From: Cephalotus follicularis
Taxonomy: Eukaryota > Streptophyta > Magnoliopsida > Oxalidales > Cephalotaceae
Assembly (NCBI GenBank): GCA_001972305.1
Contig: BDDD01000312.1
Location: 55,900-119,899, forward strand
Direction of reading: 5' to 3'
DNA: 64,000 bases
The translations under genes and the position numbers were made by a program. This document shows, one piece after another, positions 337 through 61,500 of this stretch. The notes under the pieces were generated by a model. It worked only from the letters and a program-made list of their open reading frames with translations, did not search any database and was not told the origin of the DNA. The stretch's first letter is position 1; each line of letters begins with the position of its first letter.

Positions 337-835
337 TGTTGATGCAGAAATCCTTTCCTCAACAGCGTCCTACGTGGAGGACTTTGATTTGTTGAAGGAA
401 ACGTTGTGGTATGCCCGAGAAGAAGGTTGGTGGTGGTGACTGTGTTCCCTGCACAAATAAGCAAACAGCTCGGAGGTCCAAGAGGTTGAACTCACGGGGA
501 CACTCCGATGCTTAAGTTAGACAATGCACAGAGAATTTTAGGTTCTTTAGTATGCAAAAATGGCTGACCTTCGTATAATCATTGATTCTTGTATTTATAG
601 CCCTGGAATGTAACTGTTGAGCGCTATAAACGGAGCTGATAGGTATCCCCTAAGGAAATGCCGAGGATCTTGGGCATTTCCCTGATCTCCTCCGGATTTG
701 GTGCTTACAGGCTGTTATGCGCTATGCTTTAAGTGTGGTAACGTCTGACCACGTGCCAGGGGCTATGGTGGACATCTGGCATCACGACCTAAGGACACGT
801 GGCACTGCTCTTTAAGTAGATTTTTTTCCATATCA
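337..835 (-). repeat. LTR of Tat-A (3' LTR in element sense)
   Basis: On the plus strand it starts TGTTGATGCAGAAATCC and ends CCATATCA, so in element sense it begins TGATATGG and ends CATCAACA. It matches 12875-13373 along its length with scattered substitutions. A stretch reading 'cttgtatttatagccc' near 591 is the TATA/leader region of the LTR. Confidence 0.93.
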
Positions 836-851
836 TATACCCCCCTGATCC
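836..851 (-). other. Polypurine tract of Tat-A
   Basis: Directly inside the 3' LTR the minus strand reads a G-rich tract (CAGGGGGGTATA). The equivalent position in Tat-D (57328-57342) has the same G6 tract. This is where plus-strand DNA synthesis primes. Confidence 0.75.
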
Positions 852-1254: not shown

Positions 1255-1266
1255 TCTTTAAATACC
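1255..1266 (+). promoter_or_regulatory. TATA-like box of the antisense gene, Tat-A
   Basis: CTTTAAATACC lies about 235 bp upstream of the ATG at 1494. Tat-B has CTTTAAAT at the equivalent place (29199) and Tat-D has TATAAAAG (57731). A TATA-like element in all three supports a dedicated promoter on the strand opposite gag-pol. No transcription data are available. Confidence 0.5.
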
Positions 1267-1493
1267 CCATCTCTCTTGGGGAAAATCTTTACGCTCTCTT
1301 GCTTTCCAAAACCCTAGAATCTCTGCAAATCTCTTGCCCTTCTAACCTTCAAGCACAACTTCGTCTTCGTTTTCTTCTTTACCCAGATTCTCAGGTGAAC
1401 AGCTTTCCTCAATTTCTTCTTATTTCCTGCTTCTGTAGTCTAAGGTTTTCCATGTCCACTGCATCTTCGTCTTTCTCTCTCTCTGAAAATGCC

Positions 1494-2420
1494 ATGGCTA
1501 GAACTAAACAAACCAAGAGGATGATCAGACATCCTGAGGTGGTAGCCCGAGTGTCAGCGGGGGTTACCATTGCTGAGCATCCTCTCAATATGGAGGTAGA
1601 GATGGAGGCCGCTGTTGCTAGGGCTCCCAACGTTGTGTCCACAGAGGCTGGGGTTCAATTCTTTAAGACCCATTTTGACCAGACCAAGATACGCCCGAAG
1701 AAGTTGGCGGAGCTAGTCGAAGAGTTTTCCATCCCCATGAGCCTGGACCTTGAGATCCCAGCTGATCCCTGGACGATTACAGAGAGAAGACCTGGATATT
1801 TTGTGGTCTTCCAAGACGCCCTGGAGCACGGGTTGAGGCTTCCACTGCCTCCCTTTGCCAAGACCATCCTCGACCATTACCAAATCCATCCCTCGATGCT
1901 CCAGGCACAGTCCTGGGGATTTATCATTGGATTCCTAGTGAGGTGCTTGGAGTCCGGAGTGACCACCACGGTGAACCTGTTCAAGGAGTTCCACATCTTG
2001 AATGTTTCACCAAAGAAGCGCGGTTTCTACTTCAAATCCCGTACAAAGATGATCAAGTTGTTGGCTGAGAACACTAAGAGGGTCAAAAGCTGGAGGGAGA
2101 GATATTTCATGGTCAAGAACCTCTCAGGCTTCACACCCTGTCCCTGGAGTGATACCCTGGACACAGTAGGCCTAAACCAGAGGACGACCTTGACCGCGAC
2201 TGAAAAGACTGACCTGGGGGAGCTTCTGGTTCTTGCTCCTGAGGACGTGGCCGTGGTGGTGTTTGAGGATCGCCTACAACGGCTTGGGTTAAGTATGTCC
2301 CAGGGTCATCGGGCGAGGTTGGAGATGGATGCAGAGGAGAATCCCATGGGAGTTGTGAGAGAGAGGGGACAGGATATCCGAGATGAACTTGCATCCTCCG
2401 ATACCGTTGAAGGGGGATAG
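1494..2420 (+). CDS. Antisense ORF protein, part 1: histone-H3-tail-like N-terminus plus gypsy-type transposon domain (Tat-A)
   Basis: This is an intact 308-codon frame antisense to gag-pol. After removal of Met the N-terminus reads ARTKQTKRM, matching histone H3 residues 1-8 except K for A7. Residues ~90-200 contain the block GLRLPLPPFAKTILDHYQ followed by a WGFIIGFLVRC segment. From memory this resembles Pfam PF04195 (Transposase_28, 'putative gypsy type transposon'), whose function is unknown. I chose ATG 1494 because of its GCCATGG context and because the Tat-B and Tat-D copies start here. An in-frame ATG at 1452 would add 14 residues and bury the H3-like end. Part 2 follows, by splicing or as a separate frame. 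This is the only antisense copy whose first part is unbroken. Confidence 0.75.
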   Translation: MARTKQTKRMIRHPEVVARVSAGVTIAEHPLNMEVEMEAAVARAPNVVSTEAGVQFFKTHFDQTKIRPKKLAELVEEFSIPMSLDLEIPADPWTITERRPGYFVVFQDALEHGLRLPLPPFAKTILDHYQIHPSMLQAQSWGFIIGFLVRCLESGVTTTVNLFKEFHILNVSPKKRGFYFKSRTKMIKLLAENTKRVKSWRERYFMVKNLSGFTPCPWSDTLDTVGLNQRTTLTATEKTDLGELLVLAPEDVAVVVFEDRLQRLGLSMSQGHRARLEMDAEENPMGVVRERGQDIRDELASSDTVEGG

Positions 2421-2516: not shown

Positions 2517-4260
2517 ATGACAAATCAAGAATCGACCATGGACGTCGTCAGGGCTGCCCGGGAGCAAGTCAGGACGGTGAATCCTGAGGAGCAGAGGCAA
2601 GAGGACCTCGAGAAGAAAAAGACCCTTGAGAGAAAAAAAGGCCCTCGAGAAAACCACTGCCGGGGCACAAAAGGGGACTGCCAAGGTGGCTGCTGATAAG
2701 GTCAGGGCCGAGGAGCATGCTCAGAAGAGTGTCGAGGAGGCAAGGGCCAGGGCTGAGGTAGCCGAGGAGGCCAGGACTAGAGTTGTGGCTGACCAGTCCG
2801 TGGAGGTAAGGGCCGAGGATGTTCAGGTCCAGGTTGCCGAGGAGGCAAGGACCAATGTGACTGTGGAGATAAGAACATTGGAAACAAGGGCCGAGATTTC
2901 TCGGGGTAAATGACCTGCTGCTGACAAACTCGTTCACCATTCGATGAGGTAGAGGACAAAGGAGGAGGCTACACCTCAGAACGAAACCACCGAGGAGGTC
3001 TCCCAGGACCCTGCCCTCATGTATCCTTCCAAGGAGCTGGAGAGGGTCAGTAAGATTCTCAAAGGACTTGGCAGGTCAGGGGTGAGTTTAAAGATGCAAG
3101 GGGTCGCCGTTGAGCTGGGCAAGGCGGGTCTCTTTCCCCATGAGTTGGAAGTGAGGGAAGATTGGGACGCTAACCACCTCTGGACTCACCTCTTCCAAAG
3201 TTTCTTCAGGGTTAGTAATCTTTTTCTAACCTTTTGCTACCCGTGAACCTTCAACTTCCTATTAAGCTTGTATTTCTTTTTTCAGGGCATAGTGGCTGCC
3301 CAGCTCTTGATAGAGAGGATTGACCAGGAGAGCGCCCTGCTTGAGCAAATTGGGCCCGAAAATGTCGAGCTCAAGAGGTCGCAGGACGTGTTACGGGCTT
3401 AACTCGAGGAGGTGATTGGGGTCCAGGAACAAATTACCGCCGAGAGAGATAGAGCCTTCCAAGATCTGACGAGGGAGAAAAAGATGAGGCTGACTAAAGT
3501 CGACAGAAGCATCTCCCTCGAGGAAAAGCTGAAGGCATTCGGAGAGAGGCTCGAGAAGTCGCACGAACTTGAGGTTGCCCAGACCAGAGCTGCGGTCGAG
3601 AGAGCCGTCCTTGACTTCAGGGCTTCCTTGGATTTTCAGGATGCTCAGGATAGGGCTGTGGAGAACTTTAGAGCTTCAACGGAGTTTCAGGATGCTATGA
3701 CCAAGGCCGTAGACAATTTCAAGGCCTCTGAAGATTTCAACAAGGAGGTGCTTAAGAAGTCTTCGGTCCTTTTTCGCCGGGGATTTTATTTCTGCCGGAA
3801 CATGGTTGAATATCATCCTGAGATTATGTTGGAGTCCATCATTTACGGGCCTTCGGTGACTGAATATGACTTCTTTCCTGATGGGGTTGATGATGCTGAG
3901 GAAAGAGCTTTTCGAGCCTTTGATGAGGAGCAAATTCATGCTCAGGAACCTGACTGGACGCCCGTGGGTAATGAGTTGGTTCGATTTGTCAGCCTTACCG
4001 AGGTGCCTGATCAAGCGCCTTTGACCGCAGAGCCCATCTCTCTTGTCCTTGCCGAGGATCCCACTGTTGATCCCCCGGCTGAGGATCCTACTACTGATCC
4101 CTGGGTTGAAAATCCTGCGCCTGGACTTGTGACCGAGGATCCTCTTTTTAAGTGCATGGGCGAAGATCCTCCACCTCTCACTATTGAGCCGGCTGCCGTA
4201 GATCCTCCGCTGTCTTCTTCTCCTCTTGTACATGAGATTCCTTCAGGGGATGAAAGCTAG
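2517..4260 (+). pseudogene. Antisense ORF, part 2: Ala/Glu-rich coiled-coil region with one intron (Tat-A, broken)
   Basis: It starts at an ATG just after a pyrimidine tract ending in AG, as in Tat-B (30473) and Tat-D (58291). The first exon encodes Ala/Glu/Arg-rich heptad-like sequence (AEEARTRV-type repeats). It carries a frameshift in the A-run near 2631-2639 and stops near 2911. A 75-bp intron at 3211-3285 (AGG|GTTAGT ... TTTTTTCAG) precedes a 325-codon exon, 3286-4260, interrupted by one TAA at 3400-3402. That exon has a long coiled coil, then the conserved block FRRGFYFCRNMVEYHPE, then an acidic Pro-rich tail of DPP/EDP repeats ending SGDES. The role is unknown. Confidence 0.7.
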
Positions 4261-5240: not shown

Positions 5241-6420
5241 CAAAGAATCACTGGTAATACTTCCTCAGATGCTTGGTATTCCATGCTCTGTGAATCTCCC
5301 TATCCCCCAGAGTTTCAAGTTTGAATGTTCTTGGGCGGAGCACTCTCTTAACCTTGTATGGTCCTTCACAATTAGGGGATAGCTTTCCTCTGGTACCGGT
5401 TGAATCTGCAATAGCTGAATTGCGTAGGACTAGGTCTCATTCCCTTAGTGGTCGGGGGTGTACCCTTTTGCTATCGTAACGGCCTACCCTCTGTTGGTAT
5501 GCTGCAACTTTGATAGCTGCCTTGTCTCTAAGCACTTCTACTAAGTCGAGAAGCCCTTCTTCATTAATTTCTTCGCTGAAATGTACAACTCTTGATGACT
5601 GTACACCGATCTTCACCGGTATCATAGCTTCAACTCCAAAACAAATGCTGTTTGGGGAATCACCAGTTGTTGTCCGAGGAGTGGTTCTATAAGCCCACAG
5701 TACACTTGGTAGCTCCTCTGTCCATCTTCCTTTGCTATGCTCAAGACGCTTCATCAAGCTCAAGATGATTTCTCTGTTGATCACCTCGGCTTGACCATTG
5801 CTCTGGGGGTAGGCTACTGAAGCCAACCTATGCTCTATTCTCCATTCTTTGCAGAAATCATGGAAAACCTGGCAATCGAACTGCTTCCCATTATCTGAGA
5901 CTATTACTCTTGGGACTACAAATCTGCAGATGATCGATTTCCATACGAAGCTCTCTGTGTTCTTCTCTGTGATCGTTGCCAGAGGTTCTGCTTCTACCCA
6001 CTTGGTGAAGTGGTCCACTGCACAATGAGAAACTTCCTCTACCCCGTTGCCACCATTAATGGTCTGACGAAATCCATCCCCCACTATGCAAAGGGCCATG
6101 GGGTCGTGATGGAAGTCAGGGGTTCTGAGGGTCTCCTGCTTATATTGGCGTACCTCTGACACCTATCACATTTCCTCACAAAGTCTATGACATCCTAGTG
6201 CATGGTGGGCCAGAAATAGCCCTGCCTCAATAATTTATGGTACAAGGTTCTACCCTCTGTGTGATTACCACAAACTCCTTCATGGACTTCCCTTAGAGCA
6301 TAATCGGCATCTAAGGGAGTCATACACCTTAGTCAAGGATAAGAGAATGACCTTTTGTAGAGGATCCCATCTCGGAACTGGTACCTGTTTGCTATGTACA
6401 CTAGTTTTCTCGCTTCAACG
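5240..6420 (-). pseudogene. Integrase of Tat-A
   Basis: The minus-strand translation shows the HHCC zinc-binding N-terminus (EVHEGVCGNH ... RKCDRC) near 6190-6310, interrupted by stops. The rve core follows with its acidic residues visible: D in DHFTKWVEAEP, D in VSDNGKQF, E in NGQAEVINREI. The longest open piece is 5437-6162. The C-terminal segment decays past 5440 and ends in a FKLETL-like tail near 5300. The enzyme would join element cDNA to the target. Stops and frameshifts make this copy non-functional. Confidence 0.9.
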
Positions 6421-6589
6421 GGGTCCTCGGGCAAAATCCCGTTCCTCGGCCAATTGATAAATGGAGTCATCCAGTTTGGCTCCTATGGTGTATCTATGTC
6501 CATCACATCTACCTTCGAGATAGTGGGCCTATCCAGATAGTCCATTAACACTGTTTTATTTCCCTGCAACTCCTCCGCTGTTGCTAACA

Positions 6590-6960
6590 TGGACAACTGA
6601 TTTGCTCAGGCATTTTCTGCTCTGGGACTTTCAAAACTCTTAATATTTGGAAGGCTGACTTTAAACTCTGAAAGTATGTTAAGTACTTAGCCATGTAGTC
6701 TTCTCTGGCTTCATATTCACTACTTTCCAATCCAACTACTAGCTGAGAATCACTGGAGGCTTCTATTTTTTGAACCTCTAGGTGCTTCGCGATTGTCAGC
6801 CCGAAGATCAGAGCTTCCCACTCGGCCTCATTGTTTGTGGCCTTGAAGCCAAACCTCAGAGCATACTTTATGGTTCACCCATCTAGACTAGTTAACACCA
6901 AGCCTGCTCCACTGCCAATGATGCAGGATGAGCCATCCACGGACAACTTCCATAACCCCT
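6590..6960 (-). pseudogene. Second (archaeal-type) RNase H-like domain of Tat-A
   Basis: Directly after the RT/RNase H frame, minus-strand translation reads WKLSVDGSSCIIGSGAG, then a stop in place of Trp, then NNEAEWEAL and SDSQLVVG. Those are the D, E and D motifs of a second RNase H. A tandem second RNase H is a known hallmark of Tat/Ogre-type elements. It is broken by stop codons. Confidence 0.8.
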
Positions 6961-6961
6961 T

Positions 6962-8260
6962 CTATTCTTCAGGGGTGTCTTCTTCCATACACTCCGTAAG
7001 TGTATGATCTCCTACAAAATCTGCCAAGACCTGTGATTTTATTGCTGGTCTGGCTTCGAACTTCACATCATACTCACCTAACTCAACCGACCACTTGATC
7101 AGCCTTCCCGAGAGGTCTGGCTTTGCTAGCACTTGTCTTAGTGTCTGGTCGGACAGGACCTTGATATTATGAGCTTGGAAGTACGACCTCAACTTCTTTG
7201 CTGCTATAATCAGAGCATAAGCAAATTTTTCTACCTCCGGATACCTCCCCTCAGTATCGTTCAAGGCTTTGCTGACATAATATACCGGCTTTTGAACTTT
7301 CTTCTCTTCTCTGACAAGCACTGCACTCACTGCGCCCGTTGTTGCCGCAAGGTACAAATACAAGTCCTCCCCATCCTTAGGTTTTGATATCAAAGAAGGG
7401 GAAGCCAGGTATTCCTTCAACTTGTCGAAGGCTGCTTGAGATTCTTCTGACCAAGAAAATCCCTTAGGATCTCTCAATACTTTGAAAAAAGGGAGACACT
7501 TCTTTACTGACTTTGAGACAAATCTGCTCAGGGCTGCTATTCTTCCATTCAGCTTCTGTATGTCCCTGATGGTCTGAGGAGGCCTCATGCTCTGAACTGC
7601 TGAAATCTTCTCTGAGTTGGTCTCTATTCCTCTACTTAAGACCATGAATCGGAGGAACTTACCAGAGGTGACCCCAAAAGTACACTTGGAAGGATTGAGC
7701 TTCATTTTATATCTTCTTAACACCTCGAAAATTTCCTCCAAGTCTTTAATGTGAGGGCTCCTCGCTGGCGTCTTGACGAGCATGTCGTCAATATAAACTT
7801 CCATGTTTCTCTCGATCTGGGGCTCAAAGATCTTGTTAACCAGTCGTTGGTAAGTCGCCCCAGTATTCTTCAATCCCAAGGGCATGACTTTGTAGCAGTA
7901 AATGCCTCTATCAGTGATGAAGGTTGTCTTTTTTCTCGTCGGGCCCATAAATGGGGATTTGATTGTACCCCGAGTATGCGTCTAACAAGCTCGGCATTTT
8001 GTACCCTGAGGTTGCATCCACCAACTGATCAATCTTTGGGAAGGGGAAGTGATCCTTGGGACAAACTTTGTTGAGGTCTGTGAAGTCAATGCACATCCTC
8101 CACTTGCCGTTTGCTTTCTTGACTAGGACCGGGTTCGCTAGCCAGTTAGAATAGTGCACTTCCCTGATGAACCTCGCTTGTAATAGCTTGCTCACCTCCT
8201 CTGATATTACTTGCTGCCTTTCAGGAACGAAGTTCCTTTTCTTCTGCCTTGTCGGAGGCC
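6962..8260 (-). pseudogene. Reverse transcriptase and RNase H of Tat-A
   Basis: Two overlapping frames, 7911-8744 and 6962-7948, make up RT plus RNase H. RT motifs include [23 protein letters not shown] and the catalytic YIDDMLVK (about 7772-7798). RNase H shows PVYYVSKALNDTEGRYPEVEK and LSDQTLRQVL. The frames are separated by a single-base shift in an A-rich run near 7930-7938 (GPDEKK...). The region copies element RNA into DNA. Apart from the frameshift the RT is well preserved. Confidence 0.92.
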
Positions 8261-9030
8261 TCAGAGGATCCAAACTTAGCATGTGCACCATGACTTCTGG
8301 GCTGATCCCAGGGACCTCCTCTGCCGACCAAGCGAATACATCTTTGTTATTTCTGAGGAACGTTATCAGTTCCCCTTTCTCCACCTCTCCAAGTTGTGAG
8401 CCTACTTGGATAGTTTTTTCTTCATTTCCGTCCTCCAAGGGCACCTGTAACACTTCTTCCACAGGTTGTGGACGCTCGGGTTCCACATCCCCTCTAAGCT
8501 CCATATTTGCTATGGACAAGGCCTTTTCCATCCCCTTGTCTATCACAGCAGTTTTGTAGCACTCTCTTGCTACCTGCTGATCTCCTCTGACTTTCCACAC
8601 GCCAAACCTCATTGGGAACTTCATCACCAAGTGTCTCGTAGACACTATTGCCTCAAAAAGTTCAAACCTGGACGCCCGACTATAGCATTGTACGGGCTTG
8701 GTGTGTCCACTACCAGGAATGTCATCTGCACCTGGGTCTGACATGGGGCCGTGCCTGCAACCACGGACAGGTCGATGGATCCCAGAGGATGGACCATCTC
8801 CCCTGCAAAGCCAACCAGTGGGGTCTTCACGGGCCTGAGATGATCGGTCGGTATCTTTAGCCTATCAAATGCATGTTTATACAAGATATCAGTCGAGCTC
8901 TCACTATCAATTAGGATCCTCTTCATAGTGAAAATTTCCACCAGAAGAATTACCACCACTGGGTCATCATGGGGGAGACGTACTCCCTCATAGTCCGCCT
9001 TGGAGAAGGATATCACCTCCTCATCTCCAC
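8261..9030 (-). pseudogene. Aspartic protease and linker of Tat-A
   Basis: The frame 8645-9016 holds a retropepsin-like domain: GVRLPHDDPVVV, ILIDSESSTDILYKHAF, then NAIVGRPGLNFL. The active site reads D-S-E where Tat-B has D-S-G, so the essential Gly is lost. The linker to RT (8261-8640) contains EKGELITFLRNNKDVFAWS, a segment that also survives in Tat-C. Downstream it runs into RT in the same or an overlapping frame. Confidence 0.82.
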
Positions 9031-9582
9031 AAGTCTTTAACCTCTTGCTATGCTAAATCTGTTGCACTGCAAGGGATTGCCTTCCATAGGCCTTTCTAGA
9101 CCTATTATGGTCGCCCCCAGATGCGACCCCCCCAGAGATGGTGTGGATGACACCTCTGGGCTGTTGCTATTACTCCTTTGGCTGTTGTGGAGCTTCTTCC
9201 CTGCGCTCCCGCCTTTGCTGAGGAGCATTCCTATCCACATACTTGCTTAGGTTCCCCTTACGAATCAGGTATTCTGTCTGATTCTTTAGCTGTCTGCACT
9301 CCTCGGCATCGTACCCGTGGTCACAATGGTACCAGCAATACTTTTTTGTGTCCCTCTATTCAGCTGAGGATCTCATTGGTGCAGGCCATTGAATGGGGAC
9401 CTTATCTTTCTCCACCCCAAGTATCCTGGTACGAGACTCCAGGAGAGGGAAAAATTGTTGTATGCCGGGATGGGCGCCCCTCCCCTTGGTGTTTCGTCTC
9501 TCCTAGAGAGCTTGTGCCTGAGGTCATCCTTATGGAGCTCAGTCCTCTCCTTCCTCTTTTCTTTCTTGCCAGGAGCATTTCA
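9031..9582 (-). pseudogene. Gag C-terminus with zinc knuckle, Tat-A
   Basis: Minus-strand translation near 9240-9350 gives KKYCWYHCDHGYDAEECRQL, a variant knuckle with C-x2-H-x4-(H/Y)-x4-C spacing, followed by LIRKGNLSKYV. The second His of the family (GHDTEEC in Tat-C) is Tyr here. The region is cut at 9582 by the nested solo LTR; gag continues at 11555. Confidence 0.75.
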
Positions 9583-11549: not shown

Positions 11550-11554
11550 TTTCA

Positions 11555-12829
11555 TGAATGCTCCCCTTTCTCCACCTGATGGCCTGACCATGATGTTTTT
11601 TGTTTCTTGGTTGCCATCCCCTCCTCGGCATTGATATACCTCTCTGCTCTTCTCAGCAGGTACGCCATATCCACTGCGGGCTTTTTCAGCAGAGAGAAAG
11701 TGAAGGGGGAGTTGTCCCTCAGCCCACTATTCAGCGCTGCCAAAGCGAAGGATGGCTCCGGGTCCTTCACTGTGAGAGACTCCTTGTTGAATCTGGTGAG
11801 GTAGTCTCTCAATGACTCATCTCTTCCCTGCACCACGTTGATCAGATGGGTTGAGTTCCTCCTCTGTGTGGCACTGTTGAGGAACTTTGTCACAAACAGT
11901 TCCACAAACTGATCAAAATTCTCCACCGATCCCTCTGCCTGGGTAGAATACCACAATTGGGCTGCCACAGTCAGTGTTGCCGAGAATCCTCGGCAAAGTG
12001 TGGCATCCGAAGCTTTGTGCAATAGCATGGCTTGGATGTAGGTGCGCACATGCTGGATAGGATCCGTGGACCCATTGTACTACTAGAGACTCATGAACAG
12101 AAATCCACTAGGGACACGCTCCTTCATGATCTCGGATATGAAGGGGTGGGCGCTAATGTTACGCACCTCGGACAGATATCCCCTTTGCTGCTCGGCTCCT
12201 TGGAACCTTCTCTCCATCTCTGCAAGCCTTCTGTTCATTGCTTGCTTGACATCTTCAATGTTCCTAGCCCTGCTAGAAACTCGTGACACCCCCGCCAGTG
12301 TGGCTGTGTGGTCCAACCTACTCCTCCGCAGTGTTCTTGTCCTGTGTGAGGCATTGGAGCGCACACGTATCTCCTCAACGTCCCCCTGGCGATCCACTTC
12401 CATCGCTTGGTGCTCGGGGTGCTCTACACGGGGGTTGTTGTCGAGATCCCTGGTAGTTGAAGTCTTTTCCCTCTGATATGTATTAATTTCAGCTCTCCTC
12501 CTTAGGGGTGTATTAACCCCTGACCGCCTTAGGGGGAGCATGCCCCTTTGCGGGTTTCGCCTTTGCCCACGAGGGCGTTGGTTCTCCTAGGCCGGCCTGT
12601 GCCGTCCAGATTGTCCTCTGGCCACTGGTTGAGCAGGTCTGGCCTGGTTTTGGTTGGCTAAGCTCATAGCCAACAAGTTGGTGAGGCGCTCCACTCCTTA
12701 AAGCAATTGTGTGAATTTCTCGCCAGTGATGGGAGCTTGCTCAGGAACCGCGACTTGTTCGCCTTCAGTGGGTGGGATCTCTTGTACACGGATGCCGGTG
12801 GCTCATGAATTATTGTTTCTTCTCGGCAT
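11555..12829 (-). pseudogene. Gag of Tat-A (N-terminal and capsid part)
   Basis: The start is the ATG at 12829 (MPRRNNNS), aligned with Tat-B (38399) and Tat-C (46028); it is followed at once by a TGA. The capsid region is open at 11552-12049 and shows the Retrotrans_gag pattern WYSTQAEGSVENFDQFVELF ... TKFLN ... YLTRFNKESL. An Arg-rich N-terminal part is open at 12083-12541. Gag would assemble the cytoplasmic particle. Stops near 12086, 12583, 12701 and 12803 inactivate it. Confidence 0.87.
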
Positions 12830-12874: not shown

Positions 12875-13370
12875 TGTTGATGCAGAAATCCTTTCCTCAA
12901 CAGTGTCCTACGTGGAGGACTTTTATTTGTTGAAGGAAACGTTGTGGTATGCCCGAGAAGAAGGTTGGTGGTGGTGAATGTGTTCCATGCACAAATAAGC
13001 AAACAGCTCGTAGGTCCAGAAGGTTGAACTCCCGGGTACACTCCGATGCTTAAGTTAGACAATGCACAGAGAATTTTAGGTTCTTTAGTATGCAAAAATG
13101 GCTGACCTCTGTATAATCGTTGATTCTTATATTTATAGCCCTAGAATGTAATTGTTGAGCGCTATAAACGGAGTTGATAGGTATCTCCTATGGAAATGCC
13201 GAGGACCTCAGACATTTCCCTGACCTCCACCGGATTTGGTGCTTACAGGCTGTTATGCGCTATGCTTTGAGTGTGGTAACGCCTGACCACGTGCCAGGGG
13301 CTCTGGTGGACATCTGACATCACGGCCTGAGAACACATGGCACTGCTCTTTAAGTAGATTTTTTCCCATA

Positions 13371-13373
<3 letters not shown>
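12875..13373 (-). repeat. LTR of Tat-A (5' LTR in element sense)
   Basis: It matches 337-835 end to end at the same 499-bp length. It holds the element promoter on the minus strand (TATA-like 'ctataaatat' near 13131-13140). Confidence 0.93.

Positions 13374-13404
<31 letters not shown>
13374..13404. repeat. (TA)n microsatellite
   Basis: An uninterrupted TA run that includes the right-hand copy of the Tat-A TSD. The following 13405-13840 is AT-rich with no recognisable gene. Confidence 0.9.
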
Positions 13405-26220: not shown

Positions 26221-26685
26221 CTCCTCTGTTATACATGCCAGTGCGCTCGTCTGATAGTCAGACCAGTGCACTCCTCTGCCAATGCGCTCGTCTGATAGTC
26301 AGACCAGTGCGCTCCTCTACAAGTGCGATCCTCTGCTAGTCAGACCTTCTCACTCCTATGCCAATGCGCTCGTCTGATAGTCAGACCTTCGCGCTCCTCT
26401 GCCAGTGCGATCCTCTGATAGTCAGACCTTCGCACACCTCTGCCAATGCGCTCGTCTGATAGTCAGACCAGTGCACTCCTCTGCAAGTGCGATCCTCTGA
26501 TAGTCAGACCTTCGCACTCCTCTGCCAATGCGCTCGTCTGATAGTCAGACCTATGCGCTCCTCTGCCAGTGCGATCCTCTGATAGTCAGACCTTCGCACT
26601 CCTCTGCCAATGCGCTCCTCTATTAGTCAGACCTTCGCATTCCTCTGCCAGTGCGCTCGTCTGATAGTTAGACCTGCAGGCTCCT
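26221..26685. repeat. 41-bp tandem array, about 11 copies
   Basis: The unit is CTCCTCTGCCAATGCGCTCG plus TCTGATAGTCAGACCTTCGCA with regular 41-bp spacing (26271, 26312 and on). Sites read alternately 'cgctcgtc' and 'cgatcctc', which suggests a higher-order two-unit repeat. TCTGATAGTCAGA contains the inverted pair TCTGA/TCAGA. Confidence 0.92.
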
Positions 26686-27171: not shown

Positions 27172-27172
27172 C

Positions 27173-27965
27173 GTAGTGCTCGGATAATGCCACTCTGGGC
27201 TCTTAGAATTCGACTTTTATCAAGCATGTTGGTTTCATACCGAGTTGTCTTGCACCTTCGTAGTACTCGGATAAGGCCACTCTAGGCCCTTAGAGTCTGA
27301 GCTGCATCAAACATCTCGATTTCATACCGAGTTGTCTTGCACATTCGTAGTCCTCGGATAAGGCCACTTTGGGCCCTCAGAATCCAGGTTGTATCAAACA
27401 TCTCGGTTTCATACCGAGTTGTTTTGCACCTTCGTAGTGCTTGGATAAGGACACTTTGGGCCCTTAGAATCCGAGCTGCACCAAACTTCTTAGTTTCATA
27501 CCGAGTTGTCTTGCACTTTCGTAGTGCTCGGATAAGGCCACTTTGGGCCCTTAGAGTCCGAGCAGCATCAAACATCTCGGTTTTATACTGAGTTTTCTTG
27601 CACCTTCGTAGTACTTGGATAAGTCCGCTTTGGGCCCATAGAATCTGAGTTGTATCAAACATCTCAATTTCATACAGAGTTGTCTTGCACCTTCGTAGTG
27701 TTCGGATGAGGCAAGTCTGGGCCCTTAGAGTCCAAGCTACATCAAACATCTCGGTTTCATACCGAGTTGTCTTGCACCTTCGTAGTGCTCGGATAAGGCC
27801 ACTCTGGGTCCTTAGAATCCGAGCCACATCAAACATCTCGGTTTCATACCGAGTTATCTTGCAACTTCGTAGTGTTCGGATAAGGCCATTATGGGCCATT
27901 AAAATCTGAGCTGTATCAAAAATCTCGGTTTCCTACTAAGTTGTCTTGTACCTTCGTAGTGCTCG
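27173..27965. repeat. 87-bp tandem array, 9 copies
   Basis: Units start at 27173, 27260, 27347 and on at exact 87-bp spacing to ~27956: 'gtagtgctcggataaggcca', 'aacatctcggtttcataccg', 'agttgtcttgcaccttc'. Because 87 is 29 codons, both strands stay open and give spurious 29-residue-repeat frames (e.g. minus 27282-27899). Confidence 0.93.
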
Positions 27966-28194
27966 GGAGAAAAAACATTTCGGACACGGGACAAATTCCT
28001 TCGTCGGCAAAAAGTGTCTCGGACAAAACAAAACCAAACATCCCAGTTTTAACCGAGATAAATACCCCCTAGGAAAAGCGTTCAACTTCTGTAAAAGAAA
28101 GAATTTATCTGATCTTGACCACCATTGTGTTTATAAGTAAAACAAAACTTCCTGAGCTGAATCTGAAGATTACGAACTTAGAAAGTGGGGGAAT

Positions 28195-28455: not shown

Positions 28456-28913
28456 GAGAAAAGAACTGAATGCTCTAAGAACAGTATTGGGTTGAGTGTT
28501 TTGCGTTCCTCCCTGCACACAAACAACAAACTGGTCAAAGATCCAGGATATTTCACTCCCGGGGACTCTCCAATGCTTAAGTCAGACAGTGTACAAAGAA
28601 GAAAGCTCTAAGGTTCTTTTAAGTCCAAAAATGACCGACTTGTGTAATGTATTTGATTGTGATATTTATAATGATGCCTGGATGTAACTGTCTTGCTTGA
28701 CTTGCGAAGATGATTATTATACCCCGAGGAAACGGCCGAGGATCTCGCACCGTTTCCTTATTTGGTGCTCTGGCGTTATAGAGCGTTATATTTTGATTTA
28801 TCTTTGTAACTGTCCGACCACATGTCTATAGCTTTAGAGGACATCTGGCTGAATCTCCAACGGACACGTGGCAACTTAATTTGAGTAGAAATTTTCCATA
28901 TCATATGCCCCTA
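28456..28913 (-). repeat. Left (3') LTR of Tat-B, missing its outer ~60 bp
   Basis: Aligns with the right LTR from 'gaactgartgctc' to the end CCATATCA. The first 60 bp of the right LTR (38444-38503) have no counterpart. The plus-strand sequence just inside (CATATGCCCCTATGG) is a weakened polypurine tract. Confidence 0.88.
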
Positions 28914-29439: not shown

Positions 29440-30395
29440 ATGGCTATGACTAAACAAACCGCCAGACAAGTTACCAATCCAAATTTGGTACGTCGCTTGG
29501 CTGGAGAGGTCACTGTCACCGAGCGTCCCCTTGGTGCTGAGGAGGACATGGATGTTGTCACTGTGGGCACCCCAGATGCCACTTTTACCGAGGCCAGGGC
29601 CCAAGTTTTTAATACCCACTTTGATAGGAGTGTTCTCCACCCTGAAAAAGTGAAGGAATTGTCCAAGAAGTATTGGTTCTCGAGGAGCTTAATATACTCG
29701 CTTCCTCGAGATCTTAAGGAGGCCACAAAGAGCAAACTTGGCCTCTTATGGTGTTTGAAGATGCTTTGGCACACGGCCTATGACTTCCCATACCCCATTT
29801 TGCCATTCCAATATTGAGACACTACCAAATTCACCCTTCGTTACTTCAAACTCAGTAATGTGCCTTCATCATAGGTTTCTTGGTGAAGTGCTTGGAGATG
29901 GGGGAGACCGCAACGGTGGAACTATTCAAGGAGTTCCATTCCATCAATGCTTCTCCAGGCAAGCACGGCTATTACTTCAAGTCGCATGTTAGTCAGGCCA
30001 AGAAGTTATTGGTGGACCCTAATAAGTCTGTCAAGGGCTGGAGGGGGAGGTATTTCCTTGTTAGGAACCTCCCTGGCTTTACTCCCTACCAGTGGTGCAA
30101 TTCATTGGATATCCAACGCTTCAATCAGAGGACAATTTTTTCTGTATCAGAGAAGGCAGACCTGGGGAAGCTCTCTAATCTCGAGCCAAAGGAAGTGAAC
30201 TCCACTATCTTCAAGGATCGCTTGCGCCGTGTGGGGCTGAGCATGTCCTCTGGTCGGCGATTTTCCCTAGACGAGGGAGAGGAGATCCTGGTGGGGATAG
30301 AGAGAAAGAGGGTTCAAGATGCCCGAGAAGAACCCGTGTCCTTGCCCGTTAACGCGAGGGAAAGCTGTATTAAGCCTTCCTCACCTCCTCTATAA
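29440..30395 (+). pseudogene. Antisense ORF, part 1: H3-tail-like N-terminus plus gypsy-type domain (Tat-B, broken)
   Basis: The first ATG after the TATA-like box gives MAMTKQTARQV, identical to H3 residues 1-8 except M for R2. The following ~85 residues align with Tat-A (VTVTERPLGAEEDMDV; NTHFDRSVLHPEKVKEL). A frameshift near 29740 moves the domain block into another frame, and a TAA interrupts it near 29854. From 29880 the frame is open again to 30395 and matches Tat-A closely (VKCLEMGETATVELFKEFHS; FTPYQWCNSLD; DRLRRVGLSMSSGRR). It ends CIKPSSPPL. The domain call is as for Tat-A. Confidence 0.75.
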
Positions 30396-30472: not shown

Positions 30473-31824
30473 ATGGCTTCTCGGTAACTCACCATTGATG
30501 TTTTGAGAGCTGCCATGGAGCAAGCGAGGGCTGCTGCCAAGGAGGAAAGGCAAAGAGCTCTGCAGAAATTCGCTGAGGGGAAGGAGAAGAGAGCATCAAA
30601 GGAGGTTGCTACTGCTGAGGCCGACGCTGCGGCAGCTACAGAGGCCGAGGCTTCCAGGGCAAGGTCTGTCCATGGCAAGAGAATTGCCAATGACCCACCA
30701 TCTCTTCCCTCCAAAAAGCAAAAGAAGAAGAGGAGAGATGGGGAAGGTTATTCTCGAGAAGGTGCTTCCGAGGTGAGTCCTCGAGAACCTGTCTGCCCCG
30801 ACGTGCCCGTGGACCTCGGTCGAGTAAGAGAGGTGCTTAAAGAACTCGATAACTCAGGTGTTAGCTTGAAAACCACGGGGGCAACAGTTGAGCTCGGTAG
30901 GTTGTGCCTCTTCCCTGTCGAGATGGAAGCAAGAAAAAACCGATCCGTCAGTCAAGTTTGGACCCATATCTTTCAGAGCAACATTAGGGTTTGTAACTTC
31001 CTCTTATTTTCTCTTTAAGTAAACTCTCTGCTCTTCCTTTAACCTTGTGCTTTCTTTTACAGGCTCTGAATGATGCTTATATCCTGCTGGGGAATGCTAA
31101 GGATGACTGTGCACTTATTGAGCAGCTTCAAGTTGAGGTTTTGGAGCTCAATAAGTTTGTTGATACGGCCCGTGCCCAACTGGAGGAGGTGCTCGGGGCT
31201 CAAGAGTCTATTATGGAGGAGAAGAGACAGGCTCTCGAAGCTCTGGCCAAGGCAAAGGAGTTTGGAGAGAGACTTGTAGGGGCCAATAAGCATCTTGGTG
31301 ATGCGTTGTTAGGTGCGGAGGACAAGTTATCAAAGATCCATGAGATGGAGGCTGCTCAGACTCAAACGGCAGTTGACAAAGCACTTGCAGAATTTAAGAC
31401 TTCAGCTGAGTTCCAATGTGCTCTGACCAAGGTCGTGGATGACTTTAGGGCTTCCAAAAGTTTTCATGAGGAAGTCCTTAAGGAATATGCATCACTCTAT
31501 CACAGGGGTTTTTATACCTGCTACAACCTGATTGGGCATCGTCCGGAGGCTCCTCTAGACTCTATCATTTGTGGTCCGTCAGTGGCCGAGTTCAAATTTT
31601 TTCTGGAAGGGGTTACTGCTACAGAAGAGAAAGCTCTTTAGGCCTTCGAGGAAGAAGCACGTCGTGCTCGGGGATCTGAGGAATCACCTAGGGTAGAGCA
31701 TCTAGGTGCTATGGTCCCTTTCCTTGACCTTGCTGCCGAGGATGTCTTGTCTCCTAAGCCTTTGAACTCCCAATTGCCTGTTTCTCCTCTTATATATAAT
31801 GTCCCTTCAGGGGATGAGGCTTAA
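30473..31824 (+). pseudogene. Antisense ORF, part 2: coiled coil with NLS-like stretch and intron (Tat-B, broken)
   Basis: It opens MASR then a stop at codon 5; the frame then runs to the intron donor. The first exon is an Ala/Glu-rich coiled coil followed by KKQKKKRRD, a plausible nuclear localisation signal, and a block shared with Tat-A (REVLKELDNSGVSLKTTG). The 74-bp intron is 30989-31062 (AGG|GTTTGT ... TTTTACAG). The last exon, 31063-31824, is 254 codons with one TAG near 31639. It carries the conserved YHRGFYTCYNLIGHRPE block and ends in a tail like that of Tat-A (PSGDEA). Confidence 0.72.
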
Positions 31825-39640: not shown

Positions 39641-40252
39641 TATACCTCCTCTGCTCCACCTCAATCCTCACCCCATGTTCAACCTTTGGATAGTGGTAGT
39701 GAATCTCAACCCATTGTTATTCATAACCAATTCGCTCTCCTCATGTAATTAATTTATATCTAATTTAATATAGTTCATTTCTTTAGTATCTTGTCTTATA
39801 TTTTTCTATTTTTCAGGAGGTTTCCAGACTTGCAGAATCCAATGGTGAGTCTCTATGTTTTGTATTTGTCATCACAAAGTTGAGAATCTTGTATTTTTTA
39901 AGTTATTAATTTAATATTTCGTCAAACTCAGCTAATTGATTTTGTGGACAATTTATTTTTAAAAAAAAAACAATTTTGGATTGCGATAACTAGTGGTAAC
40001 GAAAAACCATGCCCATCACTATGAAATGCTGCAACTCAACACTAATGAATAAATTTATCGTATTATTTCTTACAAGTGTTGGTCTGGTGGTAACCGGTCT
40101 ATCCTATTTTGGTTTTACCGACAGTACAAATGACAAATAAGCACTGTAATATACATACTGTAATATACATATATGATAATTAATTACCGACCTTAGTGGC
40201 AATTGTACTGACAAATCTTTACAAATTTCATTTAATTTAAAAAATTATTCAC

Positions 40253-40575
40253 ATTTGCCGACCGCTTATATACATTCCCCGACCGCTTTTGCGGTCGGCA
40301 AATCCTTACAAAATTCATTTAATTTCAAAAATTATTGACAATTACCGACCGCTTATATATATTCCCCGACCGCTTTTGCGGTCGGCAAATCGTTACAAAA
40401 TTCATTTAATTTCAAAAATTATTGACAATTGCCGACCGCTTTTATATATTCCCCGACCGCTTTTGCGGTCGGCAAATCCTTACAAAATTCATTTAATTTA
40501 AAAAATTATTGACAATTGCCGACCGCTTTTATATATTCGCCGACCGCTATGGCGGTCGGCAAATCCTTACAAAAT
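40253..40575. repeat. ~85-bp tandem repeat in the CACTA right subterminal region, 4 copies
   Basis: Four units of 'gccgaccgcttatatattcc', 'ccgaccgcttttgcggtcgg', 'caaatccttacaaaattcat'. Each unit carries one palindrome and one half site. Confidence 0.88.
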
Positions 40576-41112
40576 TTATTTTTCTGACACCGATCAACAG
40601 CAACCGCTTCACTTCCCGACCGTTTGACGGTCGGCAAATGATAAAGGCGGTCGGGGAAACGGTCGGGTTATAATCGGCGACCCAGTTATAAGCGGCCGCC
40701 ATTGCGGTCGGCTCGGCGGTCGGGGAAACCTTTCGCCGACCGCTTTTAAGGTTTTGCCGACCGCTTTGACGGTCGGGAAATGTTCTTTTTCTAGTAGTGG
40801 TACAAAGAAGAAAGCTCTAAGGTTATTTTAAGTCTAAAAACGACCAACCTGTGTAATGTATTTGATTGTGGTATTTATAGTGATGCATGGATGTAACTGT
40901 CTTGCTTGACTTGCGGAGATGATTATTATAACCTTAGGAAACGGCCGAGGATCTCGCACCATTTCCTTATTTGGCGCTTTGGCGTTACGGAGCGTTATCT
41001 TGTGATTTATCTTTGTAACTGCCCGACCACGTGTCTGTAGTTCTAGAGGACATCTGATTAAATCTCCAGAGGACACATGACAGTTTAATTTGAGTAGAAA
41101 TTTTCCATATTA

Positions 41113-42250
41113 TATATAAAAGAGATAAGATTTATTGTCATCCGGTGCCAAACTTTTTTAGTTTACCACTTAATCTTATATCACTCAATGAACTGCATTA
41201 ATTTCAAAATCCTAATTAATGATATAAGATGAGATAAAAAAGACTAAAAATTTATGACTAAATAACAATAAATCATTAGTCAATATAAAAAGATGGATGA
41301 ATCTCTTTTGGATAACGATTTGCTGGCCAAGGGCATCTTTCAAATCCCACAGTTCATGTGCAATCCTAATATTTCTTGGGTGGTTTATTTATCTGTTCAT
41401 TTATTTAAAATAAGACATATATATGGGTTCTTTCAACTGGTAGTATAGTGCATGTAATGTAAGCAATTTGTATGATTATTGTAATAAATTGACAATATAT
41501 GTGTGTGTACGGGTATTAGTTTGGATTCATTATGCTGGGTAGATCAACCAATTTGTGAGCCACGATGGAAGGTAGGACCTGAAACTTTTGGAACAAAGGC
41601 TGATTTTAAGTTTTGTGGGAACATATCACAGTGGATACCAAAATACACAAAATAAATGAGCATAGGGGTAGGACTTGTGTTTTATATGATGTCTGTTTAG
41701 CTCATGCACGGTTCCCTTATATTATTGCGGTACATAAATCAATCTGATTGAGTAATAGCCCACCCCATTTATTTTCTTGGTCTGCCATTCAAAGATTGAT
41801 ATATAAATTTTCGAGATCATGACCAAAGAAAAAGAGGAAACTGAAAAATGAAAAGCAGAATCTATACAAAAACTAGAAACAAGCGGACAACACCAATGAA
41901 AGCACCATGATAATACGAGCATTGCGTGTCTGCGTGAACTTATGCCGTCCAAGCACGTACCTAGCTAGCCTTACAATCAATTCAATTTATAGAACAAAAT
42001 AGAGAGAGAGAGAGAGAGAGAGAGAGAAAACAAACAGATAATTAACAATAAAAAGTGAAAAAAGATTTTCTCTGTTAACAATCATACAGTCCTCAAATTC
42101 TGGCCATAGCACCAGTCAAAATGAAGGTCAATAGTCAAGCAGGGATTCATTAGACAAAGGTAAGCACTCAATGTTTATATAGAATAATAGAGACGTACAC
42201 AGAGTAGTTAATCCTGAAGTAAGAGGAGTAAAGGGCATAATAAACACACC
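41113..42250. other. Intergenic DNA upstream of the host gene
   Basis: AT-rich with no coding pattern. It contains a (GA)n run at ~42000-42027. A plus-strand TATA candidate follows at 42173. The minus frame 41722-41952 is not supported. Confidence 0.6.
42173..42182 (+). promoter_or_regulatory. Candidate TATA box of the host zinc-finger gene
   Basis: GTTTATATAG about 220 bp before the ATG at 42401. The leader between is CT-rich (CTCTCTCGCTTTCTCTCC, then (CT)n at 42363-42398), common in plant 5' UTRs. Inferred from sequence only. Confidence 0.45.
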
Positions 42251-49762: not shown

Positions 49763-50074
49763 TCCTCCCCTCCTTAGAGAAATCTCGTCCCGAGATTTCC
49801 TAGGATGAAAACAACTGGGGATACTTAGTTTGCATATCATCTTCTCTTTCCCATGTAGCCTTTTCCGCTCCGTGGTATTGCCATAATACCTTTACTAACG
49901 GAATGGTCTTGTTCCTCAACTGCTTGACTCGTCGGTCAAGAATTCGGATAGGTATCTCTTCGAAACTCAAGTCCGTTCTCAACTCCAGTGGTTCCCAATG
50001 TAAAATGTGAGAAGGGTCAGGATGGTACTTCCGCAGCATCGAAACATGGAACACGTTGTGCACATCCGCCAGGG
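49763..50074 (-). pseudogene. Integrase C-terminus/chromodomain tail of the Tekay element
   Basis: The minus frame 49800-50063 reads HNVFHVSMLRKYHPDPSHIL, then LSFEEIPIRILDRRVKQLRN, then VLWQYHGAEKATWEREDDM. This is the usual integrase tail with chromodomain-like end in Tekay/Del chromoviruses, where it targets heterochromatin. The polypurine tract AAGGAGGGGAGGA lies at 49763-49777 on the minus strand. Everything upstream is deleted; the junction is at 50074/50075 (CCAGGG|TTCAAATC). Confidence 0.88.
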
Positions 50075-52653: not shown

Positions 52654-53186
52654 ACCTGACCCGATTCAACAATGAGTCTCTAATGGTAAAGGACCTGGAA
52701 CCTTAATTTACTGTGGCAGCCTTGAACAGTGGTGTGAAAGACAACTCAACTTTTACTTTCTCCCTAATAAAGAAGCATGCTCTAGATATGACAGACCTCC
52801 TTAGAAGAGCTGAAAAGTATGTAAATGCAAAGGAGGGTCTGGTGGCTAGAAAAGAGATGAGGAAAGGAGGGCCAGAGCTAACGAAAGGTGACCTGAGGCA
52901 CAAACTCTCCAAGAGGGAGGACTCACCAAAAAGGGGATCATCAATCCCCAATTACAACACTTTCGCCCCTCTCTTAGAGACGCAGACCAGAATTCTTGCA
53001 GTGGAGAAGGAAAATGTCTCAATCCAGTGGTCAGCTCCGTTGAGATCCCCAACAGACAAGAGGAACTCGAGAAAGTACTGCCGATACCACCGCGATCATG
53101 GGCATGATACGGAGGAGTGTAGACAGTTAAAAAAATCAGATAGAGAACTTGATCTGCAAAGGTCATCTGAGGGAGTATGTGGATAG
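52654..53186 (+). pseudogene. Gag of Tat-C, C-terminal part with zinc knuckle
   Basis: Continues from 47029: LTRFNNESLMVKDLEP, then a TAA where relatives have SFALAALNS, then AALNSGVKDNSTFTFSLIKK. The knuckle KYCRYHRDHGHDTEECRQL has all four ligands (C-x2-H-x4-H-x4-C). The frame ends at 53186. Confidence 0.85.
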
Positions 53187-57730: not shown

Positions 57731-57738
57731 TATAAAAG
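57731..57738 (+). promoter_or_regulatory. TATA box of the antisense gene, Tat-D
   Basis: TATAAAAG, 245 bp before the ATG at 57976. The best TATA match among the three copies. A CT-rich leader with repeated 'cttgctttcttgcactc' follows. Confidence 0.6.
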
Positions 57739-57975: not shown

Positions 57976-58290
57976 ATGGCTAGAACCAACCAAACTGCTA
58001 GGGTTTCCCATCCTTTGGAGGTTGAGCCCATGGCTACGATATATCCCCCCACTGGGGGTCCCCTTCAATCGGAGGGTAGCCCGGGGGCCGTTGACCCGAG
58101 GTGGGGGTCACACTGGTCCGAGGCCGAGGAAGCTCCTGGGAGCGTGGGATCCCCGGCCCCATCCGTGTCCCAAGAGATGGGAGAAAATTGTATTAAACTT
58201 TCATCTCCTCCGTCTTCTTTTTGTCTTCGTATTTCTTCTAACTTGTTTAATTTTGTTTTACTAACGTTTTTGACCTCTGCCTTCGCAGCA
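57976..58290 (+). pseudogene. Antisense ORF, part 1 with H3-tail-like start, central domain deleted (Tat-D)
   Basis: ATG 57976 is the first ATG and gives MARTNQTARV, identical to H3 residues 1-8 except N for K4. After ~45 residues the frame jumps to the end of part 1 (QEMGENCIKLSSPP, like CIKPSSPPL in Tat-B), so ~230 residues including the gypsy-type block are missing. The frame then reads through the part1/part2 gap to the conserved ATG at 58291. Confidence 0.7.
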
Positions 58291-59665
58291 ATGTCTTCTC
58301 GAAGAAGTTTCCGAACTTTGTTCTCTGCATGCAGGGGCTCTAAGCCCACCTCTGACACAGTTGCAGAGAAGCAAAAAGAGGCCGAGGAAGAGGCCAGACT
58401 GAAGGCTGTGGCCGAGGAGGCCAGACAAAAGGTGGCCGAGGAGGCTGCCAAGAAGAAGGCTGCTGAGGGGGCCAGACAAAGGGCCAAGGATGCTGCTGCT
58501 GGGGCTAAGCAGTTAAAGAGGCCGGGGTCAAAGGCAAAAGGACCAAACGCCCTGGGGATGACCATTCCTCGGACAAGCTTCCACCTAAAAGGGGGAGGTT
58601 TATTACTGAGACCGAGATGGAGGCCATCCTCGGGCGAACTGCTGACGTCCCCATAATCCTGCCTCCCCCCAGAGACGTGGAGAGGATGTTGGACGAGCTA
58701 GAAGGAGTTGGGAAGGGCTCCTCCAGCTTGAATACTCCAGGGGTTCCTTTTGCCCACAGCTCACTTTGCCTCTTCCCGGATGAGCTGAAGCAGAGAGAAA
58801 AGTGGTCAAGCAAGGACCTTGTGCACAAATGCTTGCGAAGCCAATTTGAGGTAAAGGGAGGTCCTCGGCCTGTACTGTTTGTCCTTGTATATTTCCTTGT
58901 GCTAACTTCCATCTTCTTATGCAGGCTTTAAACAATAACCATCTCCTGATTGAGAACTACTCAATCATTTTGGAGAGGAACGATAATCTGAGGCTTGAGG
59001 TGATGGAGGAGAAAGAAGTTTCTCGGGCCGCCAAGGCTCAATTGGAGGAGGTTCTCAAGGCTCAGGAGGCCGCTGCTGCTGAGAAGAACAAGGTCGTGGC
59101 CGAGAAAGAGGAAGCTCTCAAAGAGCAAGCCAAGGCTCAATACTTGTTCGAGTCCTTGCAGAAGCAGCACGAGGACAAATTGAGGAGGAATGAAGAGGAC
59201 ATGAAGAGGCATGAAGAGGAGAAAGCCAAGGCTATGAAGGATGCCCTTGATGAGTTTAGGTCCTCGGACGAGTTCGTCACTTTGATGGAAGCCTCTGTAG
59301 AGGACTTCAAGGCTTCTGATGCCTTTGAAGCTGAAATTGTGAAGGAAACTGCCGAGAACTACCGTCGGGGGTTCTACACTTGCAAAAACTGGGTGCAGGC
59401 TTTGCATCCGGAGGTTCCTCTGAACGACATCGCCTTCTGCTCGGCCGCCCAGGCCTTCGACTTTTATCCTGAGGGATACGAGGCTGAGGAAGAGAAAGTC
59501 GAGGAGGCTTTAACAAGGAACACTGGTCAAGGAATTGGTGAAGTGGCTCCTGGCTCCGAGGATCCTGCCTCAGCAACTACTGCTCCTCTTCCTCCTCCAA
59601 GTGCAACTGTTGTGCCTCCTGCTCCCGAGAATGACTCCTCTGCCAATCCTCCATCCTTAGCTTAG
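58291..59665 (+). pseudogene. Antisense ORF, part 2: coiled coil with intron (Tat-D)
   Basis: It starts MSSRRSFRTLFSACRGS after CCTTCGCAG. An Ala/Glu/Lys coiled coil (AEEARQKVAEEAAKKKAAE) follows, then a one-base shift near 58540. The other frame resumes (ERMLDELEGVGKGSSSLNTP; HSSLCLFPDELKQREKW) up to the donor. The 74-bp intron is 58851-58924 (GAG|GTAAAG ... TTATGCAG). The final exon 58925-59665 is 247 codons, open to its stop: coiled coil, NYRRGFYTCKNWVQALHPE, then a Pro-rich tail. This is the best-preserved last exon of the three. Confidence 0.75.
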
Positions 59666-61099: not shown

Positions 61100-61500
61100 T
61101 TTTTTTTAGAGCTACTCCTCTCCATATTTATCCTCTTCATATTCTTTCATACTTAATTTTTTATCATATCATATAATTGTATTTTTTAAATCTAACGGTT
61201 GAATTTAGTCTACTATCTAGATGAATCGTGCATGTCAATTTTTAAGTCGAATGGAACTCTATAGGTATGTTTTTGAATAAGAAACTTTTTAATAGCATAT
61301 GTAAAAAAATATATAACGGTCGAATTTGTTATGTGTCAAAAACATAATTATTGATTTTTGGTCGATTTGAAAATTGACATGCACGATCTATCTAGACAGT
61401 AAATAAAATTTAATGGTTGAATTTGAAAAATATAATTGTATGATATGATAAAAAATTAAATATAGAAGAGTATGGAGAACATGAGTTAAAGAGGATAAGA
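61100..61500. mobile_element. Foldback MITE with ~140-bp inverted arms
   Basis: The left arm (61107-61252: 'catacttaattttttatcat', 'ctagatgaatcgtgcatgtc') is the inverse of the right arm (61362-61500). The loop is ~110 bp. Arms differ at scattered sites and indels. The family is not fixed; long arms and no coding fit a Mutator-type foldback. The flank 60561-61099 shows no gene. Confidence 0.8.

Follow-up and report, generated by a model that had tools for sequence, protein, structure and literature searches.

Why a protein encoded by a retrotransposon should begin with the residues that open histone H3 is the question raised by this locus. The window analyzed here, a stretch of 64,000 nucleotides from contig BDDD01000312.1 of Cephalotus follicularis, contains on its plus strand an ATG at position 1494, in a GCCATGG context, that starts an open reading frame (ORF) of 308 amino acids (MARTKQTKRMIRHPEVV…; 1494..2420, stop at 2420). 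The protein begins MARTKQTKRM, and the codons at 1497..1520 (plus strand) specify ARTKQTKR, corresponding to H3 residues 1-8. Mature H3 starts with ARTKQTAR (the host H3 genes were also read in the genome), and the two peptides agree at 7 of 8 residues, as the initial annotation had observed. Past residue 8 the protein does not run on as H3 (KSTGGKAPRKQLATK); position 9 is M in this copy, which confirms the earlier remark that K9 is missing and that the likeness ends there.

The ORF belongs to an LTR retrotransposon, referred to here as element 1. Gag, reverse transcriptase (RT), RNase H, and integrase (rve) domains were found in gypsy order on the minus strand, with a gag region at 11552..12586 and a pol region comprising RT, RNase H, and integrase at 5437..9052. 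They are flanked by two minus-strand LTRs, a 5' LTR (12875..13378) adjoined by a PBS-like TGGCGCC and a 3' LTR (337..839) adjoined on the element strand by a polypurine tract. The LTR pair shows 93% identity (K2P 0.071), equivalent to an age of about 2.7-5.1 million years under two rates that we assume. Antisense to gag-pol, the ORF lies between pol and the 3' LTR, in the roughly 4-4.6 kb that separate the pol ORFs from the LTR. Residues 104-170 of the antisense ORF (aORF) product match the Transposase_28 (TRP28) domain PF04195 (1803..2003, plus strand; E 1.3e-10; 41.8 bits, the cut-off being 26.2). Judged by its LTRs, its domain order, and its antisense TRP28 ORF, element 1 is a Retand/Tat-type Ty3/gypsy element, and the proposal of a Tat-type antisense protein was thereby borne out by the minus-strand gag-pol and PF04195. 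In gene position, orientation, and domain, the aORF resembles the antisense TRP28 proteins described for Retand elements (PMC11963269).

Two more aORFs with such a start were found in the window. The aORF of element 2 starts with MAMTKQTARQVTNPN… (MAMTKQTARQ; 29440..29817, plus strand) and its frame is broken further on; the TRP28 part, at 29748-30341, lies in a different frame and contains stops, and LTR pieces occur near 28588-28906 and 40796-41115. Element 3 has an aORF starting with MARTNQTARVSHPLEVEP… (MARTNQTARV; 57976..58185, plus strand), with a TATA box (TATAAAAG; 57731..57738, plus strand) about 245 nt 5' of the start codon, and no TRP28 domain was detected in its aORF region. Element 1 differs from H3 1-8 at residue 7, element 2 at residue 2, and element 3 at residue 4, and at each of the eight positions the H3 residue is present in at least two of the three elements. 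ORFs with splice-like borders, judged by eye, follow the first aORF in all three elements (2581-2913 and 3403-4260 in element 1; 30488-31641; 58292-59665). The ORF at 2581..2913 (plus strand) is likely an exon that follows in the same antisense gene, while those at 3403..4260 and, in element 3, at 58850..59665 (both plus strand) look coiled-coil-like by eye and are likely last exons. The three window elements therefore probably share a multi-exon antisense gene with a coiled coil at its end.

The same window contains further repeated sequence. Tandem arrays occur at 26236-26675 (41-bp unit), 27172-27966 (87 bp), 40212-40581 (87 bp), and 53756-55006 (49-95 bp); some are near Retand-type elements, and they are comparable in kind to the repeats targeted by VANC proteins. 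Tandem arrays are reported for about half of the Retand elements with recent activity (PMC11963269). A direct repeat of 2.58 kb (47184-49766 and 50075-52657) within a plus-strand element region is 99.1% identical, which points to recent duplication, and an inverted repeat of 143 nt with 80% complementarity and a 59-nt gap is present at 61134-61276 and 61336-61478.

The occurrence of the tail was then examined across the genome (1,577,397,061 bases, 1.58 Gb, in 9746 contigs) with degenerate DNA patterns, expected counts being taken from the base composition of the window. DNA coding for MARTKQT was found at 2551 sites (1278 and 1273 on the two strands; reversed pattern 2, as 0 and 2; expected 0.94), and DNA coding for MARTKQTAR at 548 sites (285 and 263; reversed pattern 0; expected 0.004). 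Given these counts against their controls, and two more window aORFs with the tail, a chance match was set aside. The claim had been made to depend on enrichment among related elements; the tail is enriched genome-wide, and the claim was not refuted by this check. However, because the sites stem from descent within one family, they are not independent events, and no formal probability is claimed; the functional argument rests on codon-level constraint and not on raw site counts.

K follows at position 9 in 14 of the 548 MARTKQTAR sites, nine of which are H3 genes (continuing KSTGGKAPRK) and five family copies; the H3 genes account for 9/548, and the other 539 sites encode an exact ARTKQTAR outside H3. 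We read 44 of the 548, namely the first 30 listed and the 14 with K9, and apart from the nine H3 genes all 35 were related to the element 1 protein by tblastn (L064 weakly, E 0.19). These 44 were compared as protein sequence, antisense placement having been read on the window elements. Another 20 of the 2551 MARTKQT sites, chosen for their unusual codons, all looked by eye like members of the same family. The copies fall into subfamily A (MARTKQT-R/K-R-I), subfamily B (MARTKQTARQVTxP), subfamily C (MARTKQTAR-V/A/S/P-SPPLEVEPL), and a fourth, D-like type (copy L049). Most subfamilies have the full ARTKQTAR, a stronger match than the initial annotation claimed from the element 1 copy, which lacks A7. 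Where they align with element 1, C and B/D copies are mostly 42-58% identical to it (tblastn), and PF04195 was detected in A, B, and C copies. Many family copies are broken, 17 of the 30 top-ranked A places having at least one internal stop. Five copies (L061, L063, L064, L069, and L072) read MARTKQTARK, their K9 being one base away from the CAA codon usual in subfamily B. The C copies were read only through the MARTKQTAR pattern, which itself selects for the tail; the bias is milder for the B list, drawn with a 99-aa query containing the tail, and milder still for the A list, drawn with the 308-aa protein.

Relatives outside Cephalotus were not found: three protein searches returned 8, 13, and 10 proteins, all from Cephalotus, by a method limited to relatives that have several exact words of five residues in common, and absence elsewhere is therefore weak evidence. 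The gene models of the 13 distinct Cephalotus relatives begin elsewhere than at the tail. A scan of viral contigs matched two stretches, neither of which codes for a relative, and no relative by sequence was found in the PDB at E up to 1.

Codon-level comparison was carried out on 50 of 128 scored subfamily A places (the 30 best, window copy included, and 20 ranked at the bottom) and on 20 of 150 subfamily B places spread along the list. In the A sample, the H3 residue was retained at A1 in 36 copies, R2 in 46, T3 and K4 in 49 each, and Q5, T6, and R8 in 48 each; position 7 was R in 34 and K in 11, position 1 was V, P, S, or G in ten copies and D or I in four, and K9 was never seen. The B sample gave A1 19, R2 14, T3 18, K4 20, Q5 20, T6 19, A7 14, and R8 18, again with K9 in none. 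Residues 2-6 and 8 are thus kept, residue 1 is mostly kept, 7 is free, and 9 is lost. For residues 2-6, pN/pS was 0.06 (A) and 0.19 (B), compared with 0.48 and 0.69 for residues 9-40. Among 303 five-codon windows in the 30 best A copies, RTKQT ranked sixth by pN/pS (0.045; median 0.31) and seventh by pN, a constraint in A equal to that of motifs in the TRP28 region (FKEFH, for example); the same analysis included 14 non-A copies, which came through the MARTKQTAR pattern and carry the same tail bias.

When the K4 codon alone was left free, 2702 sites were found, with K in 2551 (reversed control 13). Seven of the first 100 sites listed lacked K, one being unrelated and six family-like, with N4 in L136, L138, and L140, E4 in L135 and L137, and R4 in one. 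Element 3 (57976-58040) forms an N4 subgroup with L136 and L140 (111 bases read each), in both of which the following sequence is the same as in element 3. A trap of the H3K9M kind, considered for the M9 of element 1, was dropped, M9 being present in 3/50 A and 0/20 B copies. From the pattern of constraint, we conclude that the N-terminus is best described as a selected, protein-level mimic of the K4-bearing end of the H3 tail.

A mimic of this kind would need a free end, and the element 1 start codon was therefore considered together with its upstream region. As the initial annotation had pointed out, an in-frame ATG is present at 1452, opening a leader (MSTASSSFSLSENA; 1452..1493, plus strand), and translation from it and its equivalents would make the H3-like stretch internal, with no free tail. 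In subfamily A such a start has some appeal, since an in-frame upstream ATG within 300 nt is open in 23 of 30 copies examined, where it would bury the tail if used, and 32 of the 50 sampled copies have an open leader; such an ATG is seen, however, in only 3/13 B/D and 0/24 C copies. With no open upstream ATG in 24/24 C copies and few in B/D, the MARTKQ start alone is common to the subfamilies, and in subfamily C the tail looks like the protein start, as far as the genomic sequence indicates. The leader is also under weak constraint (its pN/pS is 0.67 in the 32 A copies where it is open, and in these the tail has 0.23) and is out of frame in some A copies that conserve the tail (L012, L121, and L122, for instance). 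Its Ser richness in A stems from a pyrimidine tract in the DNA, and the pyrimidine-rich stretch, with donor- and acceptor-like sites upstream, resembles a 5'-UTR intron, although these site scans had no shuffle control. Donor-like sites lie 60-170 nt 5' of the tail in 19/30 A, 10/12 B/D, and 22/23 C copies (likewise without shuffle control), and AG stands directly at the ATG in 6/12 B/D, 16/23 C, and 0/30 A copies, nine of the 30 A copies having AG 6 nt earlier. An intron in the 5'-UTR upstream of the tail is thus possible; if real, genomic stops just 5' of the tail in C may be intronic, and the leader at 1452..1493 may be 5'-UTR or intron and not coding. A TATA-like sequence (TTTAAATA; 1257..1264, plus strand) lies about 230 nt 5' of ATG 1494, and a box of this type about 220-250 nt upstream was found in 25/30 A copies and, with the cut-off unchanged, in 2/13 B/D and 6/24 C copies, in a scan without shuffle control. 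As an account of the family as a whole, translation from upstream ATGs is, on balance, improbable, although in subfamily A it may occur. Methionine removal is favored by a small second residue, and A, V, P, S, or G occupies this position in 46/50 A copies.

Other accounts accept the tail as the protein start, or leave the protein aside, and explain its conservation without H3. The most serious holds that the tail is kept as a nuclear-localization signal, a basic tail contacting DNA or RNA, or an N-terminal stability signal, the match to H3 being coincidental. The tail is indeed basic, continuing in subfamily A as KR/RR-IIRR, and a coincidence in one ancestor could have been copied thousands of times by descent. 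A simple basic signal, however, has no need of T3, Q5, and T6, which are constrained like the basic residues; the match falls precisely on the start of the mature protein, in the register of H3; and A7 is kept in most sampled B copies and in the C and D-type copies read, although for C and D the search pattern itself requires A7. We regard this explanation as unlikely, if less so than translation from upstream. Capture of a host H3 exon, of which the first codons alone survived, could account for the exact ARTKQTAR at 539 non-H3 sites, for the five copies reading MARTKQTARK, and for the CGN (CGA) codon at R2 that a few copies, such as L044 and L049, have in common with H3 genes. Yet of the 60 Arg codons at R2 in the A and B samples 59 are AGR, as opposed to CGN in 9/9 H3 genes; in the family copies read the likeness does not extend past residue 8 or 9, bar scattered single residues; and the five K9 copies continue in a subfamily-B-like manner (KISTP, KVTDP, KTITP). 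No trace of a recent capture was found, in agreement with the initial annotation, and capture is very improbable. Slightly less probable still is conservation of the DNA or the sense RNA as a primer site, packaging signal, or regulatory signal. The stretch does lie close to the element's 3' end, a place where cis signals are found, but synonymous codons vary freely over it: K4 is AAA in 33 and AAG in 16 A copies and AAG in 13 and AAA in 7 B copies, T3 is encoded by ACT, ACC, ACA, and ACG, and A1 by GCT, GCC, GCA, and GCG.

Compared with these accounts, it is likely that this Retand/Tat gypsy family encodes an antisense TRP28 protein bearing a selected mimic of H3 residues 1-8 (A-R-T-K-Q-T-x-R, without K9), which would act as a decoy or an adaptor for a host protein recognizing the H3K4 end of H3. 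Once the methionine is removed, a free H3-like tail would be exposed; the TRP28 domain, predicted to bind DNA (PMC11963269), and the later coiled-coil-like parts would tether the protein to the DNA of the element inside the nucleus, where the tail would occupy or recruit the host protein. LSD1-type active sites read R2, K4, Q5, and R8, and SNAG tails occupy the same site. The conservation of residues 2-6 and 8, the free position 7, and the lack of K9 best fit an LSD1-type active site, judged from known structures, on which the choice among targets is based. The tentative first choice is accordingly an LDL-group LSD1-type H3K4 demethylase, blocked by the tail as a pseudosubstrate, so that H3K4me1 would stay in place and silencing downstream of H3K9me2 would fail. 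In Arabidopsis, LDL2 is reported to remove H3K4me1 and to promote silencing downstream of H3K9me2 (PMC13157976, PMC11204290); since LDL2 acts after H3K9me2, a decoy would break silencing even with H3K9me2 retained.

The PHD fingers of VIM/ORTH-type proteins of CG-methylation maintenance are a slightly more doubtful target, and recruitment of WDR5/COMPASS-type H3K4 methylation is more doubtful again. The domain layout of VIM/ORTH proteins, with their PHD fingers, is described in PMC8594673. A decoy for readers has to be set against the incomplete retention of A1 in subfamily A (36/50) and of R2 in subfamily B (14/20). Many H3-tail readers require A1. Directed against LDL demethylases (or the VIM PHD finger), an H3-tail decoy could have uncoupled H3K9 methylation from silencing at the element's own copies and driven the amplification to thousands, a scenario that we put forward as speculatively as the demethylase itself.

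Histone mimics are known from the SNAG tail of SNAIL and GFI1, which engages LSD1, from the tails of PAF15 and DPPA3, which engage UHRF1, and from influenza NS1. There, as proposed here, a host protein that recognizes the H3 tail is engaged by a brief stretch of H3-tail-like sequence lying at the end of a protein or close to it; those proteins, however, are of cellular or, in one case, viral origin and match H3 over fewer residues, whereas the tail kept by this retrotransposon family covers H3 1-8. The SNAIL1/SNAG peptide has been described in the LSD1 active site (PMC3715402). Histone mimicry as such is already known, and what would be new is its occurrence in a transposable element. The initial annotation knew of no such description, and none was found in the literature searched, judged from titles and the beginnings of abstracts.

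Among element-encoded proteins, VANC of Arabidopsis VANDAL elements undoes silencing, and its targets form tandem repeats (PMC10398659); it is likewise an anti-silencing protein, but of other elements and another protein type, and histone mimicry is not described in the abstract of that report. The geminivirus protein TrAP inhibits SUVH4/KYP by binding its catalytic domain (PMC4606454), and is therefore a parasite protein directed against a plant H3-modifying enzyme, again with no H3-tail mimicry described in the abstract. Maize Grande offers a parallel in its accessory gene gene23, which is antisense like the tail-bearing gene, has a promoter of its own, and encodes a nuclear product (PMC7264820). 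For Retand, antisense TRP28 is reported in 97% of recently active clusters, and the function of TRP28 is given as unknown, possibly DNA-binding (PMC11963269). The H3-like tail is an addition made here, the main text of that paper being without mention of histone, N-terminal, chromatin, or Cephalotus.

The function of antisense TRP28 proteins is an open question in print, and the tail mimic offers a concrete, testable one. If confirmed, it would be a case of a transposable element using histone mimicry against plant silencing, and the family would amount to a natural experiment on the H3 residues that matter to the target.
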